Positions 4,288 to 58,870 of a stretch of DNA of 64,000 nt are shown here, one piece after another. Origin of the DNA: an uncultured SAR86 cluster bacterium (lineage in GTDB: Bacteria > Pseudomonadota > Gammaproteobacteria > Magnimaribacterales > D2472); assembly GCA_943789005.1 (NCBI GenBank), contig CALSSL010000002.1, positions 1 to 64,000 on the forward strand. The letters run 5' to 3'. A program made the translations under genes and the position numbers. The notes below the pieces were generated by a model. The model saw nothing but the letters and a program-made list of their open reading frames with translations. It did no database searches and was not told where the DNA came from. The stretch's first letter is position 1, and every line of letters starts with the position of its first letter.

Positions 4288-6318
4288 CTAAGACTCGATA
4301 AGTGCTATATCTTCGGGATGAAGAAGATCTGAATCTAATATATTAGTAAAGGGCTTTAGATGTTTTGCGTATGGCTTCCATCTGCCCATTCCTTTTTTAT
4401 TAATTGGTTGTCTAACCTGTTCTGAACTAGCGGTTCTAACCGATCTTTCAGTTTCATGAAATGAAATACAGGATTCTTCAAATGGAACCTCAATATATTC
4501 TAATATTCTTCTAACTTGGCCATCTAGGTCATTAATTACATCTTCATTATTAACCCTTAGCACCTTATTTGGTAACACACTATCCCAATGATTCATTAGT
4601 TTTACGTAACTATTATAATAACTTGCAGCTTCTTCTAATCCATAAGTAAATTCTTGGCCTTGAGCAAATAATTGTTTGAACATACTAAAGCAACAATCTA
4701 GGGGATAACGTCTAGCATCAATTATTTTTGCATTAGGTAGAATTAAATGTATTAAGCCTATATGTCTAAAGTTATTAGGCATCTTATCTACAAACATTGG
4801 TGCACCATCTCTATGCATCATAGTTTCATCAATAAATGATTTACCCATTTCATAACGTTGTTCGGGAGTAAAACTAGACATAATTTTTGGATACTTACCT
4901 GATTTACCGTAAATATCATCTCCTCTTAAGCTTTGAGCTAATGAAAGTATATTTGGTAACTCAAGAGTTCCATCAATCATTGAGTGTGAAGCTAGAATCT
5001 GTTCAATTAATGTTGATCCAGACCTAGGTAAACCAAGGATAAAAATTGGGTCCCTGGTATCATTACCGCCCTCTCCCAAAGATTTAAAAAAATCTTTATC
5101 ACATACATCTATTTGTGATTGTAGTTCATTGTCCATTCTTTCAATAGAATATTTGCTTTGTTCTCTTTTAATCTCATTACCTTTATTTAAATGATAAAAG
5201 GCTTCATTAAACTCACCTTTTGATTCAAGAGCTTGGGATAATGCAAAATGAAAATAAACTTTTTCCTTCAATGACAAATCTATTCTATTTAACTGACTAT
5301 CAATTATCTCTATCTCATCGTCACTGAATGTATATGTTTTGAGGTTTGATAATGAGAAAAAAGCTTCACCGTGATCTGGTTTAATTTGATAAGCAGATTT
5401 ATAGCTTTCAATAGCTTCAGCAGTTTTACCAAGAGTTTTTTGAGCATGACCTCTTGATGTAAAAGAGCTAAAATTATATGGATTTATTTTAATTAAATCA
5501 TTAAATAAATCGACCGCTTTTTCATGTTCTCCGTTCTGCATAAGCTCACTTCCTTTTTGAGCTTGGTAAGTAATATTGTTAGGAAACTGTTCACATAGAA
5601 TATTTACCTGTTTCATGGTTTCAGAAAATTTTTGTTTTTTTCTTAAAACCATTGCATATTTCATTCTTAACTCACCGTCATTTGGTTTAAAATCCACAGC
5701 TTTCTTAAGCAAAGTTTCGGCATCATCAAAATAACCAAGTCTATTAGCAATTTCAGCTAACTGCGACATTGCATATGTATGAGTGGGATTTTTCTTTAGG
5801 AATTCTCTGCATCTTTTTTCTGCTATACCAAGCCTTCCTTCATTCATAATTTGATCTATATATAGCAGGGTTGGTGGTAAGGATTTAAATTTATTAATTT
5901 GTTCTAATGCGTGACCAGAGGCTGCCTTGTTATTTTGTTTAACAAAGTATTCATTTAATGAGTTCCATGAAGCTATTAATGCAGGATTTAGTTCGCATGC
6001 TTGCCTATAACTAGAAATAGCCTTTTCATCATTGTTTATGGTCTTATTTAAATGTCCAAGTTCCTGATATGCTCTAGCCATATCAGGAGCATTAACTAAT
6101 AATCGTTCAAGATAATCATTAGCCTCTTTAAATTTTTTAAGGTATCTGCATGAAACAGCTGATAAATATAATGCATCAATATTATCAGGATGATCAGACA
6201 AACTTATTTCTAAAAGATGTAAAGCGTCAGCAAAACGATTTTCTTTAACAGCCTGGGTTGCCTCTTGAAGGTCTACAACAAGACTTGAATCGTTTGAATT
6301 ATAGTTACTATCAGACAT
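4288..6318 (-). CDS. TPR-repeat sulfotransferase family protein
   Basis: The product is 676 residues. The N-terminal part (about 10-350) is a run of tetratricopeptide repeats, for example ARAYQELGHLNKTINNDEKA and GEAFFSLSNL. The C-terminal part (about 420-650) is a PAPS-dependent sulfotransferase domain. Its 5'-phosphosulfate loop is FILGLPRSGSTLIEQIL, followed by ELPNI and DKMPNNFRHIGLI. Proteins of this architecture are frequent in marine Proteobacteria; the substrate is unknown. There is no signal peptide, so it is cytosolic. No operon partner is evident. Confidence 0.85.
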   Translation of the reverse strand: MSDSNYNSNDSSLVVDLQEATQAVKENRFADALHLLEISLSDHPDNIDALYLSAVSCRYLKKFKEANDYLERLLVNAPDMARAYQELGHLNKTINNDEKAISSYRQACELNPALIASWNSLNEYFVKQNNKAASGHALEQINKFKSLPPTLLYIDQIMNEGRLGIAEKRCREFLKKNPTHTYAMSQLAEIANRLGYFDDAETLLKKAVDFKPNDGELRMKYAMVLRKKQKFSETMKQVNILCEQFPNNITYQAQKGSELMQNGEHEKAVDLFNDLIKINPYNFSSFTSRGHAQKTLGKTAEAIESYKSAYQIKPDHGEAFFSLSNLKTYTFSDDEIEIIDSQLNRIDLSLKEKVYFHFALSQALESKGEFNEAFYHLNKGNEIKREQSKYSIERMDNELQSQIDVCDKDFFKSLGEGGNDTRDPIFILGLPRSGSTLIEQILASHSMIDGTLELPNILSLAQSLRGDDIYGKSGKYPKIMSSFTPEQRYEMGKSFIDETMMHRDGAPMFVDKMPNNFRHIGLIHLILPNAKIIDARRYPLDCCFSMFKQLFAQGQEFTYGLEEAASYYNSYVKLMNHWDSVLPNKVLRVNNEDVINDLDGQVRRILEYIEVPFEESCISFHETERSVRTASSEQVRQPINKKGMGRWKPYAKHLKPFTNILDSDLLHPEDIALIES

Positions 6319-41973: not shown

Positions 41974-43188
41974 TCAAACCCCTGTAACAAGCCTGATTAA
42001 TACATAGAAAAGAACAGTCAAGGAAGCTCCAGCAGGTATTGTTACAACCCAGGATAAAATGATTCTACCAATAGAACTTAAATCTAAATGCGATACACCT
42101 TTTGCTAATCCAACACCAATTACAGCACCTACTAAAGTATGAGTTGTTGATATTGGAAAACCAATATAAGTAGCGGCAACAACAGTTGACGCTGCAGCCA
42201 TTTCAGCAGAAAAACCTAGACTTGGAGTTAGGTGAGTAATTTTACTTCCAACTGTCCTGATGACACGTCCACCAAGCATAGATAAACCAAAAACAATACC
42301 AATACCACCAATTAATAAAACCCAAGGGCTTACAGCAGCTTTTGCGCCTATTGCTCCTTCAGAGGCAACACTGATGATAGCAGACATAGGACCAATAGCA
42401 TTTGCAACATCATTAGAGCCATGAGCAAAAGCCATAGCACATGCAGTTACGATCATTAAAATGGCAAAAGCAGATTCAACACCATGTTCTCTAATTTTTT
42501 CTTTGTTTATATTTAATAAAATTGAAGAAATTATTGAAACAATAATACCCAAGCCGATAGTAACTATGACTACTTCATTGTCAGTCAAAGGAATGCCGAC
42601 ATGCTTAAGACCCTTTCTAGCAGTAACAAGTCCTATTATTACTGCAACAAAAAAACTATAAACTGGAATTAAAGTAACCGCTGCCTGAGATGGGTCTCTT
42701 CTATCTAAAATAAATTTCTTTGCACTCAAGAACAAAAGAAATGCAAATGTTCCAGATATAGCTGGTGATACGATCCAGCTAGCTGCAATAGTTCCAACCT
42801 TATCCCAAGAAACAGCTTCAAATCCTGCTGAAATTATTACAAAACCTACTATAGAACCAACGATTGAATGAGTGGTTGAAACAGGCCAGCCTTTGGAACT
42901 AGCAATTAAGAGCCATGTTCCAGCTGCGCAAAGTGAAGACATCATACCAATAATAAATATATTCTCTTTTCCAACATATAAATCAGGATCAACAATACCC
43001 TTTCTTATGGTTGAGGTTACCTCTCCGCCAGCTAAATATGCTCCAAGAAATTCAAATATTGCAGCTATAAAAATAGCTTGCTTAAATGTAATCGCCTTAC
43101 TTCCAACAGAAGTACCCATTGCATTAGCAACATCATTAGCACCAATACCAAATGCCATGAAAAAGCCAGCAAATGCAGCTATAATCAA
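41974..43188 (-). CDS. pit: inorganic phosphate transporter, PiT family
   Basis: The product is about 404-416 residues with ten to twelve helices and the two inverted PiT signatures GIGANDVANAMGTSVGSKAI and FAHGSNDVANAIGPM. It imports phosphate with H+ or Na+. The first start codon in frame is a TTG at 43188, which trims the first helix. The open frame continues upstream to an in-frame ATT at 43224 (IETLFLDPTLIL), giving a more normal N-terminus behind GGTGA, so a rare start or an indel is likely. It is divergent from ppk2, with a PHO-like box between. Confidence 0.92.
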   Translation of the reverse strand: MIIAAFAGFFMAFGIGANDVANAMGTSVGSKAITFKQAIFIAAIFEFLGAYLAGGEVTSTIRKGIVDPDLYVGKENIFIIGMMSSLCAAGTWLLIASSKGWPVSTTHSIVGSIVGFVIISAGFEAVSWDKVGTIAASWIVSPAISGTFAFLLFLSAKKFILDRRDPSQAAVTLIPVYSFFVAVIIGLVTARKGLKHVGIPLTDNEVVIVTIGLGIIVSIISSILLNINKEKIREHGVESAFAILMIVTACAMAFAHGSNDVANAIGPMSAIISVASEGAIGAKAAVSPWVLLIGGIGIVFGLSMLGGRVIRTVGSKITHLTPSLGFSAEMAAASTVVAATYIGFPISTTHTLVGAVIGVGLAKGVSHLDLSSIGRIILSWVVTIPAGASLTVLFYVLIRLVTGV

Positions 43189-43267: not shown

Positions 43268-43296
43268 TGTTACATTAATGTGACTTTTAATGAGAC
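43268..43296 (+). promoter_or_regulatory. PHO-box-like tandem repeat upstream of ppk2
   Basis: TGTTAC (43268), TGTGAC (43279) and TGAGAC (43291) follow each other at 11 and 12 bases with AT-rich spacers, 39-67 bases before the ppk2 start. Spacing and TGTxAC form resemble the stronger box near phoR. Confidence 0.45.
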
Positions 43297-43334: not shown

Positions 43335-44120
43335 ATGAATCTAATATCGCTTGATCAATCAGAATATAAGAGACTTGATACCAAAGCTTATACTTTGGAA
43401 AAAAGAAGACTTCAGATTGAATTATTAAAACTTCAAGAAGATGTTATAAAAAATAACAGAAAAATTTGCATACTTTTTGAAGGGAGAGATACTGCAGGAA
43501 AAAGTTCTGCAATAAAATTTTTTTCAGAATATTTAAGACCTAATAATTTTAATTATGTACAACTGGGCATTCCTTCAAAATGGGAATCATCCCATTGGTT
43601 TCAAAGATGGGCAAAGGTCATTCCAAAAGAGGGGGAAATGTCATTTTTAGATAGATCTTGGTACACAAGAGCTATCACAGAGCCAATAATGGGATACTGC
43701 ACAGAAAATCAATACAGACTTTTTATGAACAAAGTAAATGACTGGGAAATGAAATTGATTGATGATGGGGTTGAGTTGATAAAATTCTATTTCTCTCTTT
43801 CCAAGGACCAGCAAACAAGAAGAATGCAAGCAAGAAAAAACTCTCAATTGAAGTATTGGAAATTATCAAAAAATGATGAAAAGATAGTTACAAAATGGGA
43901 TGCATTTACTTTATACAAAGATCAAATGTTCAAGAAAACTAGTACGGAAGTTTCACCATGGGTGTCAATCAATTCAAACAATAAAATGATAAGTAGATTA
44001 ACTTCCCTAAGATATCTGTTAATACAGACTGATTATGAAAATAAAAAAATTCTGAAGCCTGCTAAATATTCAAAAGATATGGCAAACTATAGCGCTTCAA
44101 TTGAAGGTGTTAAGATTTGA
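43335..44120 (+). CDS. ppk2: polyphosphate kinase 2 family protein
   Basis: The product is 261 residues. Walker A is FEGRDTAGKSSAI, followed by YVQLGIPSKWESSHWFQRW and the Walker B/lid SFLDRSWYTRAITEPIMG, the usual PPK2 order. It phosphorylates nucleotides from polyphosphate, or the reverse. The ppx gene follows 54 bases downstream, so making and breaking polyphosphate are linked. Confidence 0.93.
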   Translation: MNLISLDQSEYKRLDTKAYTLEKRRLQIELLKLQEDVIKNNRKICILFEGRDTAGKSSAIKFFSEYLRPNNFNYVQLGIPSKWESSHWFQRWAKVIPKEGEMSFLDRSWYTRAITEPIMGYCTENQYRLFMNKVNDWEMKLIDDGVELIKFYFSLSKDQQTRRMQARKNSQLKYWKLSKNDEKIVTKWDAFTLYKDQMFKKTSTEVSPWVSINSNNKMISRLTSLRYLLIQTDYENKKILKPAKYSKDMANYSASIEGVKI

Positions 44121-53986: not shown

Positions 53987-54388
53987 CTATTTATCCTTTT
54001 GTTTCTCAATTTTATATATTTTTTGCCCTTGACGGAATAAGGCATCATTTTGATTTACTTCAACAAGCTCAAATGAACCTTCAAGAAAATCTCCAAGTGC
54101 AACAAGAAATTGATTATTACCTTTTTTAACAATTACGGAAGAGTCTTGATTGCCAGACCTTATACCAATTAATTTATAATCAAATTCTACTTGGTTATTT
54201 TCGTCAACAAGAAACTCATCTACTTTTGATGATGAAGAGTTAGTTTTAAAATCATTAAGATTTATGTTATCTAGTGTTAATATTTTTGGTTCATCCATAT
54301 TAGAAGAAATAATTAAAAATATAATAAATACTAAAGGTAACATTAGTGTGGATAAAAATATTTTTTTTATAATTCTAAAATTTATCAT
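53987..54388 (-). CDS. gspC: type II secretion protein GspC, short form
   Basis: The product is only 133 residues: one N-terminal membrane helix (about 10-28), a linker, and an HR-type domain (YKLIGIRSGNQDSSVIVKKGNNQFLVALGDFL). The C-terminal PDZ or coiled-coil domain of classical GspC is absent, so the protein ends KIEKQKDK. First gene of the gsp operon, five bases before gspD. Confidence 0.8.
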   Translation of the reverse strand: MINFRIIKKIFLSTLMLPLVFIIFLIISSNMDEPKILTLDNINLNDFKTNSSSSKVDEFLVDENNQVEFDYKLIGIRSGNQDSSVIVKKGNNQFLVALGDFLEGSFELVEVNQNDALFRQGQKIYKIEKQKDK

Positions 54389-54464: not shown

Positions 54465-54487
54465 AGTTTATATTGGAAATATAAACT
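54465..54487 (-). terminator. perfect AT-rich hairpin after the micropeptide
   Basis: AGTTTATATT pairs perfectly with AATATAAACT around a three-base loop. It begins at the last base of the micropeptide stop codon. No immediate T tract follows, but a T-rich stretch begins about 25 bases on. It may attenuate or process the transcript before gspC. Confidence 0.4.
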
Positions 54488-54573
54488 TAATTTATGCCTG
54501 AAATTTTGATTACTTTATTTAGTCTCCCGGACTTCATGAAAGAATGAAATTTTTTCCAAATTGACTTTACCAT
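54487..54573 (-). CDS. basic micropeptide, 28 aa, behind a PHO box
   Basis: This 28-codon ORF begins MVKSIWKKFHSFMKSGRL and ends ISGIN. Seven Lys/Arg plus a His, and no Asp or Glu, make it strongly cationic; aromatic and aliphatic residues alternate with basic ones as in an amphipathic helix. AAAGGAG stands eight bases before the ATG, one of the best ribosome sites in the window. Three PhoB-type repeats and a -10-like TATGTA lie directly upstream. It is in the 270-base phoR-gspC spacer. No family is recognised; it is likely made under phosphate limitation. Confidence 0.6.
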   Translation of the reverse strand: MVKSIWKKFHSFMKSGRLNKVIKISGIN

Positions 54574-54590
54574 TTTATGGGCTCCTTTAT

Positions 54591-54626
54591 TACATAAATG
54601 AAACATTTATGTGACATTTATGTGAC
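54591..54626 (-). promoter_or_regulatory. triple PHO box and -10 for micropeptide / gsp operon
   Basis: On the minus strand GTCACA (54621-54626), GTCACA (54610-54615) and GTTTCA (54599-54604) are spaced exactly 11 bases, and the first two share the spacer TAAAT. This is the direct-repeat form PhoB binds. TATGTA at 54591-54596 can serve as -10, about 13 bases after the second unit. Confidence 0.65.
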
Positions 54627-54658
54627 ATCATAAATCTTTAATATTTACTTGTAAAGTT

Positions 54659-56419
54659 TTATTTTTTTACAGGCAAGGTAAACCAAAAAATACTTCCAGC
54701 ATCTTTATTATTTAAAACACCAACTTCTCCATTTAAACTGTTTATTAAATTTTTAACGATAGCTAAACCCAGGCCACTTCCTTTATTATCAGAAGCTCTT
54801 GCTGCTGCAGTTCTATAAAACCTATCAAATAAAAACTCTTGATCGTTTTTTGAAACTCCATCTCCTTCATCTGCGACCTCTACTTTAATGTATTCATGAT
54901 TTTCGGTTGTTGATATATTAATTACCGAATTTTTTGGTGAATATTTAAATGCATTATCAATTAAATTATTCATAACTCTTTCAATTGATTGTTTATCAGC
55001 TTTTATAAGGCTTTTGTGATTAGATTTATAAACAATATCGATATGTTTTTTCATTGTTACACTTTTCATTGAGTGAATATATGACTCAATAAACTCATCT
55101 AAATTAATATCGACTATATTTAGATTTAAGTCTCCATATTCAATTCTAGATAAATCAATTAAATCAGATACCATAGAAGTCAATCTCTCGGCATTATGAA
55201 GAATAGCCTTTGAAAATACCTTTGCATCTTTTTTATTCTCAAGAGCTCCATCTAACAAGGTTTCAGAATTTGCTCTTATTACGCTTACAGGTGTTCTTAA
55301 TTCATGAGATAAATTAGATATAAAATCTCTTCTCATTGAATTAAGCTGTCTTAGTTGTGTTATATCATGGAGAACAAGAATGAATTGACCGGTGGTCTTT
55401 GATTGATTCATTGATCCTAACACCCATTTTGTATATCTTCTATTAATATGAATTTCGAATTCAATATCAGCTCTTTTTTTATTTTTAACCCTTTTAAATA
55501 AATAATTTAAAGCAGGAATATTAAAATTCTTTATATTTTCATTTATCAGGCTATCTATATTCAAAATAACTGAAGCTTGTTCATTTGTAAAAACAACATC
55601 TCCTGTTTTATTGGTAACTAATATACCCTCTCCTAAATCATCTAAAACAAGTCCAAACTGATCTCTTTGTTTAGCAATAATCTTGATTTGATTTTTTAAA
55701 TTTTCAGATAATTGTGAAATTGATCTAGCAACGGTTCCAAATTCATCTACTCTTTGTGTTGGCAGTAATTTAATATTATCTTTCAGAGATTTGCCTTTGG
55801 ATATACTTGCAGCAACGTTTGCTAAATCTTGAATATTTGAATATAAATAATTAGCGGCAACTCCACTAGCAATAATAGAGACTATAAAAACTACTAAATA
55901 AAGAAGAATAAGGGATAGGCCAAGAGTACCTGTAATATTTTCTAGATAGTTTAGAGGTACAGCTATTCTAATGATATTTGGATCTGGTTGTTGCATATCC
56001 TGGATAGCAAAATATATTAAATCCTTATTAAGAGTGTTGCTGTATCTCGAGGACCATCCTGTTTTTAACTCAAGGGCTTCTATTACTTCTGATCTATTTC
56101 CATGGTTATCAATAGTTTCTATTTCTTCAGGGCTTAATTCTGAATCTCCAATAACAATACCGTTATTACTTATAAAAGTTACTCTTGAATTTGAGGCAAT
56201 AGCAAACTTATCAGCAATAATATCTGCTTCTTGAATTGAATTGAATTTATTTAAATTATCAACAGATAAAACCAAAAGGTTGGCTTTTTTTTCTAGCTCA
56301 TTAACTGTTTGTAATTTTAAAGTATTTGTTAAGTCTCTTTCAGCAACAACATAAGTTATTGAGATGCTAATTGTTAGTAAGCAAAAAACAATTAAGAAAA
56401 TTCGGGATCTTATTCCCAT
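54659..56419 (-). CDS. phoR: phosphate-regulon-type sensor histidine kinase PhoR
   Basis: The start is MGIRSRIFLIVFCLL at 56419, four bases after phoB; a longer frame overlaps phoB. The product is 586 residues: TM1, a periplasmic sensor (about 30-155), TM2, HAMP (ASISKGKSL), PAS (VLDDLGEGILVTNKTG), HisKA with FISNLSHELRTPVSVIRAN, and HATPase (NLIDNAFKYS, DEGDGV, GSGLGLAIV). The large periplasmic domain is unlike E. coli PhoR and more like the Bacillus type. Pairing with phoB and the local PHO box support the name. Confidence 0.85.
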   Translation of the reverse strand: MGIRSRIFLIVFCLLTISISITYVVAERDLTNTLKLQTVNELEKKANLLVLSVDNLNKFNSIQEADIIADKFAIASNSRVTFISNNGIVIGDSELSPEEIETIDNHGNRSEVIEALELKTGWSSRYSNTLNKDLIYFAIQDMQQPDPNIIRIAVPLNYLENITGTLGLSLILLYLVVFIVSIIASGVAANYLYSNIQDLANVAASISKGKSLKDNIKLLPTQRVDEFGTVARSISQLSENLKNQIKIIAKQRDQFGLVLDDLGEGILVTNKTGDVVFTNEQASVILNIDSLINENIKNFNIPALNYLFKRVKNKKRADIEFEIHINRRYTKWVLGSMNQSKTTGQFILVLHDITQLRQLNSMRRDFISNLSHELRTPVSVIRANSETLLDGALENKKDAKVFSKAILHNAERLTSMVSDLIDLSRIEYGDLNLNIVDINLDEFIESYIHSMKSVTMKKHIDIVYKSNHKSLIKADKQSIERVMNNLIDNAFKYSPKNSVINISTTENHEYIKVEVADEGDGVSKNDQEFLFDRFYRTAAARASDNKGSGLGLAIVKNLINSLNGEVGVLNNKDAGSIFWFTLPVKK

Positions 56420-56423
56420 ATGC

Positions 56424-57117
56424 TTACTCGGGTATTCTTGAGAATTTATAACCAACACCTCTGATGGTTTGGACATACTTACCCATAGTACCAAGTTTTT
56501 CTCTTAATCTTTTTATATGGGTGTCAACAGTTCTTGTAGTAACTTCAGCACTATACCCCCAAACATCTGAAAGTAGCTGATCTCTAGACTGTACTCTACC
56601 TCTTCTATCAACTAATTGACGCAAAAGCTTAAATTCAAGTGCTGTTAAGTATAACTGTTCATTATTTACAAATACTTCATGGGAATCTGTGTCATTACAT
56701 AAATCACCAAATTGTCTTTTTACTTCAAGGTTATCTGATTTTTACATCACTCTTTTTAATACTAGCTTTTACTCTTAATATAAGCTCTCTTACACTAAAT
56801 GGTTTAGTAACATAATCGTCAGCTCCAAGCTCAAAACCAACAACTTTATCAACCTCATCATCTTTTGCAGTAAGAATAATTATTGGTATTGATGAAAAAA
56901 TTTTATCTGATTTAATTTCTCGACATAAATCCAACCCAGATCCATCAGGTAACATTAGATCAAGAAGTATTAATGAAAAGGAGTTGGACTCTAAAGAATT
57001 TCTCCCCTCAGCCAGGGAGGAAGTTGAAATTACACCATATCCTTCCCTTGAAAGATTATATTCAAGAGTTTTGCGAATATCTGGCTCATCTTCAATGAGC
57101 AATATTTTTTTTGACAT
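56424..57117 (-). CDS. phoB: phosphate regulon response regulator PhoB, one frameshift
   Basis: The start is MSKKILLIEDEPDIRKTLEYNL at 57117. The receiver has the phospho-Asp in LILLDLMLPDGSGLDL and Lys in DYVTKPFSVRELI. After an AAAAA run near 56740 (+1 slip) the frame continues KSDNLEVKRQFGDL, LTALEFKLLRQLV and SDVWGY, TRTVDTHIKRLREKLG, the winged-helix domain. Restored length is 231 residues, as PhoB. Confidence 0.88.
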
Positions 57118-57164: not shown

Positions 57165-58870
57165 TTATAAAATAAGATTTTCTATTATACATTTTAAATT
57201 CTTTTAAAAACTGTTCTCTAAGATTTGGTTTATCAAATTTTCCAGATCCAACTTTTGGAAGATTACTTGTACAAAATTTAATATTTACGGGTATTTTAAA
57301 TGCAGCAAGCTTCGTGCTAAAAATGACTGGAGCTTCATCATGAGATAATGTCGATCTTCTCTTAAATAAATTGCTGCGCACAGAATCTCTCCAAGTCTTT
57401 CATCTGGTATCCCAAATACACATGCTTCTAAGAATATCTTTATGCTCATAGATTGCTGCCTTCAACTTCTGGACAAGCAATATTTTCACCACCTCTGATG
57501 ACAATATCTTTTACCCTATCCAATATATATAGAAAAGGTCCTTCAAACTTTCCAAGATCGCCAGATTTAAACCATCCATCATCACTCATACATTCTTTTG
57601 TAGCTTCAGGATTTTTCCAATAACAAATCATGTTTCCTAAAGACTTTATAGCAATCTCACCTACTTCACCCTCTTTAAGTTCATTCCAATTTTTATCTAT
57701 AATTTTAATTTCTGTTAAAGGAGGGACAACTCTTCCTGTTGATTGAGGGTGATCAACATATTCATCTCCACTTCCAAGAGCTCCTAATGCATTTGTTTCT
57801 GAAAGACCATAACCAATACCAGGTCTAGCTTCGAATTCGGAATCAAGCTGTCTAACATGTTCTGCTGGTCTTGGTGCTCCGCCTGCACCAAGTGTCTTTA
57901 AAGATGAAAGGTCATAATTTAGTCTCTCGGGATGATTTAATAACTCCCATGTTTGTGTTGGCACACCGGTAATATCTGATATTTTTTCTTGTTCTATCAG
58001 TTGCAATGCTATGCCTGCATCCCATTTTTTCATCATAACAATTTTGCGACCAACCAAAATAGACATAAACATGCCAGCATGGCTTCCCGTAACATGGAAA
58101 AGCGGAACACAAAGTAAAATTGCTGAAGCTTCTTCGAGCAAAGAAGAGGTGATTGGATTTTTTTGAGCATCAACTTCTTTCATAATAGAAGAAAAACATG
58201 CCCAGCTAAATACAGTTGATATTATTGCTTTTTGAGAAGACAGAACACCTTTTGGCTTCCCTGTAGATCCAGATGTGTAATAGATAGTTGCATGATCATT
58301 TCTACCAATGTCTACTTCAGGAAATGAGGTTGAGTGTTCTTTAATAAAATCTGAAAAAGATTTAAATGAAGAGTCAGGAGTGTAAGTTGTTACAATTTTT
58401 TTAATATTTTCAAGAGATTCTAAGCCTTGCATTCTCTTTTTATCTGCAAATAAAAGTTTTGCATCTGAGTGCTCTAGACCGTATATAACCTCAGATGGGA
58501 TCCACCAGGAATTAAGAGGAACACAAACCGCACCAATACCAACTATTCCTAAATATGCAAAAATAAATTCTGGATTATTCTGCATGCAAATTGCAACTTT
58601 ATCTCCCTTCTTTATGCCTTCTTTAATTAAAGCGTTTCCTGTCTGAGCGCTTTTTTCAAATACTTCTTTGTATGTATATCTTTCACCCTCATATACAAGA
58701 CATTCTTTATCTGAATGTAAAAGAGCAAAATCTAAATAACCTCTGATACTGTCTGGAAAATTGATATATTCATTAAATGTAACTCCAGAATCATTAACAA
58801 CTTCTTTGGTTTCAAACATTTGACCAGGTGAAGTGAGTTGAGATAAAGTCTCTTGATATAAGTCTTTCAT
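57165..58870 (-). CDS. AMP-dependent acyl-CoA synthetase, several frameshifts
   Basis: The first 465 residues are open: ATP/AMP motifs TIYYTSGSTGKPKGVLSS, GYGLSETNALGALG, GWFKSGDLG and RVKDIVIRGGENIACPEVE. The C-terminal part is restored by slips at GG near 57458 (+1), CTTAGAAG near 57427 (+1) and near 57352 (-1), giving VFGIPDERLGEILCAAIYL and LPKVGSGKFDKPNLREQFLKE with the catalytic Lys. No stop is seen before phoB in that frame, so a further indel is likely; the end at 57165 is my estimate. It activates a carboxylic acid, substrate unknown. Confidence 0.8.

Follow-up and report, generated by a model that had tools for sequence, protein, structure and literature searches.

Between a PhoR-type histidine kinase gene and the first gene of a type II secretion operon, the minus strand of the window (the whole stretch of 64,000 nucleotides that was analysed) carries a 28-codon open reading frame that starts with ATG at 54573 and stops with TAA at 54487 (Table 1). 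The encoded micropeptide contains no aspartate or glutamate, and its basic residues are six lysines, one arginine and one histidine. The original prediction had described an open reading frame with eight basic residues and no acidic one, a ribosome-binding site at an 8-base spacer, three repeats spaced by 11 bp and a -10-like element, and all of these are present on the minus strand. The repeats read TGTCACA (54627-54621), TGTCACA (54616-54610) and TGTTTCA (54605-54599) and are exactly 11 bp apart. An upstream ATG at 54606 opens a longer frame in the window; relatives keep only the form of 28-29 residues. By itself the open reading frame is unremarkable, and it is conservation that lifts the micropeptide above chance.

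The hairpin that was predicted at the stop codon also exists (10 bp stem, 3-nt loop, -6.4 kcal/mol, z -2.3), but as a conserved part of the unit it failed, as nucleotide similarity with relatives stops short of it and the relatives do not share it. A role as terminator was rejected, since the hairpin is AT-rich, lacks a T-tract and was not called by a terminator scan of the window.

The PhoR-type kinase resembles TIGR02966/PnpS and scores below the equivalog cut-offs. The GspC-like gene is a neighbour of the micropeptide and probably lies outside its unit. In the window the phoB gene changes frame near 56749-56768, and the adjacent gene for an AMP-forming ligase (57199-58870, minus strand) does so near 57455-57576. 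Both genes are intact in relatives such as the SAR86 locus L080, and the breaks are probably assembly indels.

Table 1. Features of the micropeptide locus and related sites. Coordinates refer to the window, except in the last row, where they refer to the contigs named.
Feature	Position	Strand	Remarks
Micropeptide open reading frame	54487..54573	minus	28 aa, MVKSIWKKFHSFMKSGRLNKVIKISGIN; conserved, under purifying selection
Ribosome-binding site AAAGGAG	54582..54588	minus	8-base spacer to ATG; read from sequence
-10-like element TATGTAAT	54589..54596	minus	read from sequence; function only inferred
PHO box (very likely), three TGTCACA-type repeats, 11-bp spacing, TGTCACATAAATGTCACATAAATGTTTCA	54599..54627	minus	best pattern match of the genome (1.27 Mb)
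AT-rich hairpin at stop codon	54465..54487	minus	no T-tract; not common to relatives
Second PHO-type site	43268..43285	.	divergent PiT/PPK2 promoter
PiT-type phosphate transporter (PF01384)	41974..43188	minus	probable fellow member of the Pho regulon
Polyphosphate kinase 2 (PF03976)	43335..44120	plus	probable fellow member of the Pho regulon
PhoR-type histidine kinase	54659..56494	minus	directly upstream; HisKA, HATPase_c
PhoB-type response regulator	56427..57117	minus	read in two frames in this assembly
GspC-like protein (T2SSC, below gathering score)	53987..54388	minus	first type II secretion gene
Secreted two-cysteine companion	L080 5704-5985; L142 4699-5001; L093 4688-4996; L095 4688-4996		about 94-103 aa

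Conservation of the micropeptide and its upstream repeats in SAR86

When 150 relatives were searched at the nucleotide level, the segment from the repeats to the stop codon was found to recur at the phoR-gspC junction of SAR86 genomes. The SAR86 peptides are 64-82% identical to that of the window, comprise 28-29 residues and align without internal gaps, compared with 27-63% identity for the neighbouring GspC (loci where GspC aligned); the micropeptide is better conserved than the adjacent GspC. Twelve positions are invariant in the first eleven peptides (M1, W6, K8, F9, H10, M13, K14, G16, R17, L18, S25 and G26). Pairwise differences among the SAR86 members at codon positions 1, 2 and 3 number 1061, 540 and 1819, with third positions dominating, and the pooled pN/pS is 0.28, a value that rests on largely saturated comparisons. 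The test set by the original prediction, that start, frame and basic pattern be kept in SAR86 relatives at this junction, was run and passed, and the Ka/Ks check suggested along with it indicates purifying selection. The micropeptide is a real protein-coding gene.

A profile search found clear members (E < 0.001) in 24 of the 203 genomes of the order and, the window's own genome excepted, none among 369 genomes sampled from the class and 399 sampled from the phylum. For peptides of this length an E-value can be trusted no further than the profile behind it, and completeness varies among the genomes of the relatives. Among 84,980 species scanned with a pattern, 20 loci were recovered; nearly all of them carry the SAR86 label or the same phoR junction, and one labelled Pelagibacter (L081) has neighbours otherwise known from the viral set described below. 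Several SAR86 genomes possess phoR and lack the peptide, which must therefore be dispensable.

Only two loci in the 1.27-Mb genome match TGTNACA-N4-TGTNACA with at most one mismatch, and because the sole locus besides the micropeptide promoter is the promoter shared by the PiT and PPK2 genes, the repeats are very probably a PHO box, binding of PhoB being inferred. Two criteria for membership of a Pho regulon are met, namely 11-bp-spaced repeats of TGTCA-type half sites ahead of the micropeptide gene and the same motif ahead of the phosphate genes of the genome. Pairs of repeats at 11 bp lie upstream of the peptide in 23 of the 24 SAR86 members, and the heptamers are most often 11 bp (50 pairs) or 22 bp (25 pairs) apart. 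Of the 24 members, 22 agree with the E. coli consensus at 11 or more of its 14 positions, as against 1.6% of shuffles. In all 12 peptide-bearing relatives that were scanned, every listed perfect repeat match sits at the peptide.

No box is present at five phoR-gspC junctions that lack the peptide, and in many other genomes without it phoR does not stand at that position. Two of those five junctions belong to G050 and G067, genomes that have a variant, RFHxFMKSGRIxKVWN, elsewhere, where it is accompanied by 11-bp-type repeats and a T-tract terminator. Box and peptide are thus largely gained and lost together in SAR86 and, since the peptide-less junctions are boxless and the variant at the second locus has repeats, the box goes with the peptide rather than with the secretion operon. 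The site at PiT/PPK2 and this co-occurrence support the predicted PHO box, with binding of PhoB and induction at low phosphate remaining inferences.

Other secreted proteins were observed at comparable positions. In G019 (L015, about 1500-1850) the place of the micropeptide at the PHO-box position behind phoR is filled by a secreted protein of another kind, about 100 aa long. Another secreted family, of about 141-149 aa, lies beside PHO-type repeats (L282 1534-1956, L274 1545-1967, L272 1031-1477) in the SAR86 genomes G016, G021 and G018. It follows a photolyase-like gene in G016 and G021, as the second-locus micropeptide does in G050, and adjoins a PiT gene in G018.

As a separate observation, made in the gspC spacers of loci such as L046 and L049, several relatives have a hairpin of the form GAGCTAC...GTAGCTC with a T-tract directly ahead of gspC. 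A motif GCTACA(A/C)T also recurs ahead of gspC and could perhaps be the -10 element of a separate gspC promoter.

Viral relatives and a secreted companion

The largest fact of the analysis could not be seen from the sequence alone. In a scan of IMG/VR the core KFHxxMKSGRLNKVxK was present in 120 viral contigs, and with a broader profile the number rose to at least 278, both counts being lower bounds from a pattern scan. Removal of near-identical copies from the fetched loci left 71 distinct viral members. The neighbours of the main viral groups are T4-like as judged by PHROG (RegA, gp62, gp45, Hsp20, the major head protein gp23 and tail tube), and the DNA polymerase gp43 also neighbours viral copies. 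Beside other viral groups are predicted genes that we take, from reading of the sequence alone, to be terminase, MetK or curli-like genes. Recurrence at several unrelated viral positions is a sign of repeated selection.

The gp43 proteins that were tested are at most 48%, and the gp23 proteins at most 63%, identical to their counterparts in the best-listed cultured phages. A tblastn search of INPHARED with the peptide gave no matches, or only chance matches within phage RNA polymerase genes. A profile search of five isolates (C48C1, Melnitz-3, HTVC008M, P-RSM4 and HTVC103P) found none, which is weak evidence since there was no positive control. In an attempt at host assignment a phage-encoded MetK was 53-59% identical to nearly all Pseudomonadota listed and so singled out no host.

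An 11-bp heptamer pair precedes the gene in 19 of the 70 distinct viral members with enough upstream sequence (27%), as compared with 2.3% of background windows from the same loci, and the distances peak at 11 bp (28 pairs) and 22 bp (9 pairs). The viral members are not independent; the boxes nonetheless occur in several distinct contexts. In twelve other viral members TATAAATA, which we take to be the core of the T4 late promoter, lies no more than 110 bp away, and this element and the 11-bp pair never occur in the same member. As TGTNACA is palindromic, the orientation of the phage boxes is ambiguous. Host PhoB controls genes of T4-like cyanophages, and the same cyanophage study warns that Pho boxes predicted in phages are unreliable and require proof by experiment (PMC10976474). 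The viral micropeptide genes with PHO-type repeats upstream meet the criterion for phage auxiliary genes under host control, PhoB binding again being inferred. The majority of viral members, however, have no PHO-type repeats and are set in clusters of replication or structural genes, suggesting that the role in phages need not involve phosphate.

In SAR86, at locus L080, the gene between phoR and the micropeptide encodes a secreted protein that is 94 residues long and has two cysteines, and relatives of this companion (35-39% identical) directly precede the peptide in three viral contigs (Table 1). The companion has no significant match in Pfam and its viral version none in PHROGs. Its structure model is beta-rich, and a fold search of the PDB with this model gave no significant match. 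That the pair of companion and peptide is common to SAR86 and phages argues for exchange of a cassette, in a direction that is undetermined. The possibility that L080 is itself a phage contig was considered and rejected, as a capsid search was empty and L080 is an ordinary SAR86 phoB-phoR-gsp locus. In the phage contig L149 (about 4900-5062) the start of the micropeptide resembles the start of the companion's signal sequence, which looks as though a deletion had removed the companion and joined its beginning to the peptide.

Predicted structure and possible roles

Some long viral forms have an N-terminal transmembrane helix ahead of the core, and by the positive-inside rule the basic core of these anchored forms is inferred to be cytoplasmic. 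A hydrophobic membrane segment is present in these forms only and is not evident in the alignment of the SAR86 peptides. An AlphaFold2 model of one long form predicts helices at 3-24 and 32-41, a Ser-Gly break and a helix at 44-52. Mapped onto the peptide of the window it predicts a helix at 5-14, Ser-Gly, and a helix at 17-25. The model is of moderate confidence (mean pLDDT 74) and was built from the viral form, not from the window peptide. Glycine commonly ends a helix, and Asn, Thr, Asp or His commonly starts one, so that Gly at 16 and N/T/D/H at 19 fit two helices. The first helix is amphipathic (hydrophobic moment 0.62, permutation p ~0.005), the second not significantly so. A fold search with the model gave no significant match.

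The explanation that we consider likely as a whole is that the micropeptide gene, a protein-coding one, belongs to a small Pho regulon and encodes an intracellular effector that is induced by PhoB and also carried by phages. At low phosphate PhoB would bind the 11-bp repeats and a short mRNA for the cationic peptide would be made. The peptide would fold into a pair of short helices (residues about 5-14 and about 17-25) that meet at the conserved Ser-Gly, the first of them amphipathic, and the pair would present the conserved F9, H10, M13, K14, R17, K20 and V21. Both the pattern of conserved residues and the existence of membrane-anchored variants suggest that the peptide docks to a conserved host component on the inner side of the membrane. 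It may act within the cytoplasm, probably on the inner surface of the inner membrane, and by such docking put the cell into a low-phosphate mode. The core is also found in uncultured marine T4-like phages, in some putatively under host PhoB and in others apparently under promoters of their own, and these phages would presumably impose or exploit the low-phosphate state during infection. Coding capacity, conservation, association with the motif, spread among phages and anchored viral forms are observed, whereas PhoB binding, expression, fold, location and effector role are inferred without expression, binding or phenotype data.

Four other explanations can be weighed against this one. The peptide might be a feedback regulator that binds to PhoR (or PstB/PhoU) on the cytoplasmic side and adjusts signalling in the manner of MgrB with PhoQ, and in phages it would hold the host Pho response in a useful state. 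This possibility is favoured by the PhoB-type repeats, the position beside phoR in most carriers, the predicted cytoplasmic side of the core in anchored viral forms and the two-helix model. On the other hand, a relative sits away from phoR in some SAR86, other phoR-bearing SAR86 lack the peptide, and phage copies are often found in core replication or capsid clusters, which need not follow phosphate. It is equally conceivable that the peptide binds rRNA or mRNA and, in starved or infected cells, slows translation or aids recycling of ribosomal phosphate. All viral members are indeed basic, with a mean net charge of +8.2, His, Lys and Arg residues are invariant or nearly so, and the gene is frequently found beside regA, which encodes a phage translational repressor. 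However, transmembrane anchors would hinder action on a soluble RNA target, and no similarity to known families was found.

A leader peptide or attenuator for the downstream gsp operon under phosphate starvation would be consistent with a position directly upstream of gspC on the same strand and with the absence of an intrinsic terminator between the two in the terminator scan of the window. It is nevertheless very unlikely: where the peptide is missing from a phoR-gspC junction the PHO box is missing too, four copies at the second locus are closed by a T-tract terminator and lie among different neighbours, a terminator-like hairpin precedes gspC in several junction copies, and no gsp genes were found among the examined neighbours of viral copies. 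Constant linkage to gsp fails, as the second SAR86 locus and the viral loci have no gsp genes nearby. GspC or GspL, which the original prediction named as possible targets, are for similar reasons improbable, given the boxless junctions and relatives that have repeats at unrelated loci. Finally, a non-coding RNA or a chance open reading frame behind a promoter might be suspected from the very short length and the absence from the protein family databases searched. This is all but excluded by the codon-position pattern and the pN/pS, by conservation at the protein level across unrelated viral contexts and N-terminal extensions, and by the lack of a match in Rfam.

Under the preferred reading, a PhoB-induced effector, the target is not settled. 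PhoR, the membrane and RNA, all named beforehand, remain live candidates between which the evidence does not decide. A membrane-associated partner other than PhoR may be marginally the best candidate, feedback on PhoR/Pst and action on RNA or the ribosome are tentative options of equal standing just behind it, and a target outside these three is only slightly less likely. A bolder reading, which as one joint claim we would sooner doubt than accept, if only by a little, is that SAR86 bacteria and uncultured T4-like marine phages exchange a new family of phosphate-starvation micropeptides, that the peptide is a compact takeover module which attaches to a conserved component of the host and brings infected or starved cells into a low-phosphate state, and that some phages put it under the host's own PhoB.

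SAR86 bacteria are among the most abundant in the surface ocean, much of which is limited by phosphate. Peptides this short are normally omitted from annotation, and this one combines the strongest PHO-type site of the window's genome with recurrence in hundreds of viral contigs, pointing to a peptide that has gone unrecognised and that serves both cells and viruses where seawater is poor in phosphate. If the interpretation is true, phage auxiliary genes can be micropeptides, and the coupling of phosphate starvation and infection in the ocean would have a testable and very small handle, with a core of about 16 residues whose size permits synthesis for pull-downs.

Relation to known small proteins and phage genes

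The best that Pfam and NCBIfam offered for the peptide were insignificant scores with other families; PHROGs and a profile search of the PDB gave no match, and the literature searched, with the peptide letters included, holds no description of the family. It is thus likely to be new, in agreement with the prediction that no phosphate-starvation micropeptide of this type had been described, albeit small proteins activated by PhoB do exist.

Among phage genes the closest parallels are those controlled by PhoB, such as pstS of cyanophage P-SSM2 and genes of S-PM2d (PMC10976474). They resemble the viral micropeptide genes in lying behind host PhoB sites in T4-like marine phages, the gp43 region included. 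They differ in that they encode transport and replication proteins or longer hypothetical proteins, whereas here a micropeptide of uncultured phages is encoded that was not found in the cultured phages searched. NblA, a small cyanobacterial protein induced by starvation that is also present in cyanophage Ma-LMM01 (PMC4103541), is likewise a nutrient-starvation protein of the host carried by phages. NblA is about 60 aa long and acts on phycobilisomes; no sequence relation to the micropeptide was found, and no NblA family model in Pfam, NCBIfam or PHROGs matched it.

MgrB is activated by PhoP and inhibits PhoQ in a feedback loop, acting with a periplasmic part and with cysteines that are conserved. 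It is also a small protein induced by a response regulator and would be analogous if the micropeptide acts on PhoR, but the core of the latter has no conserved cysteine and is predicted to be cytoplasmic. The E. coli protein YoaI, of 34 aa, is activated by PhoB and links PhoR-PhoB to EnvZ-OmpR. YoaI is a hydrophobic membrane protein, in contrast to the SAR86 peptide, which is cationic and has no membrane segment; the likeness lies in a tiny protein under control of PhoB, inferred in the case of the micropeptide, that may connect two-component systems.
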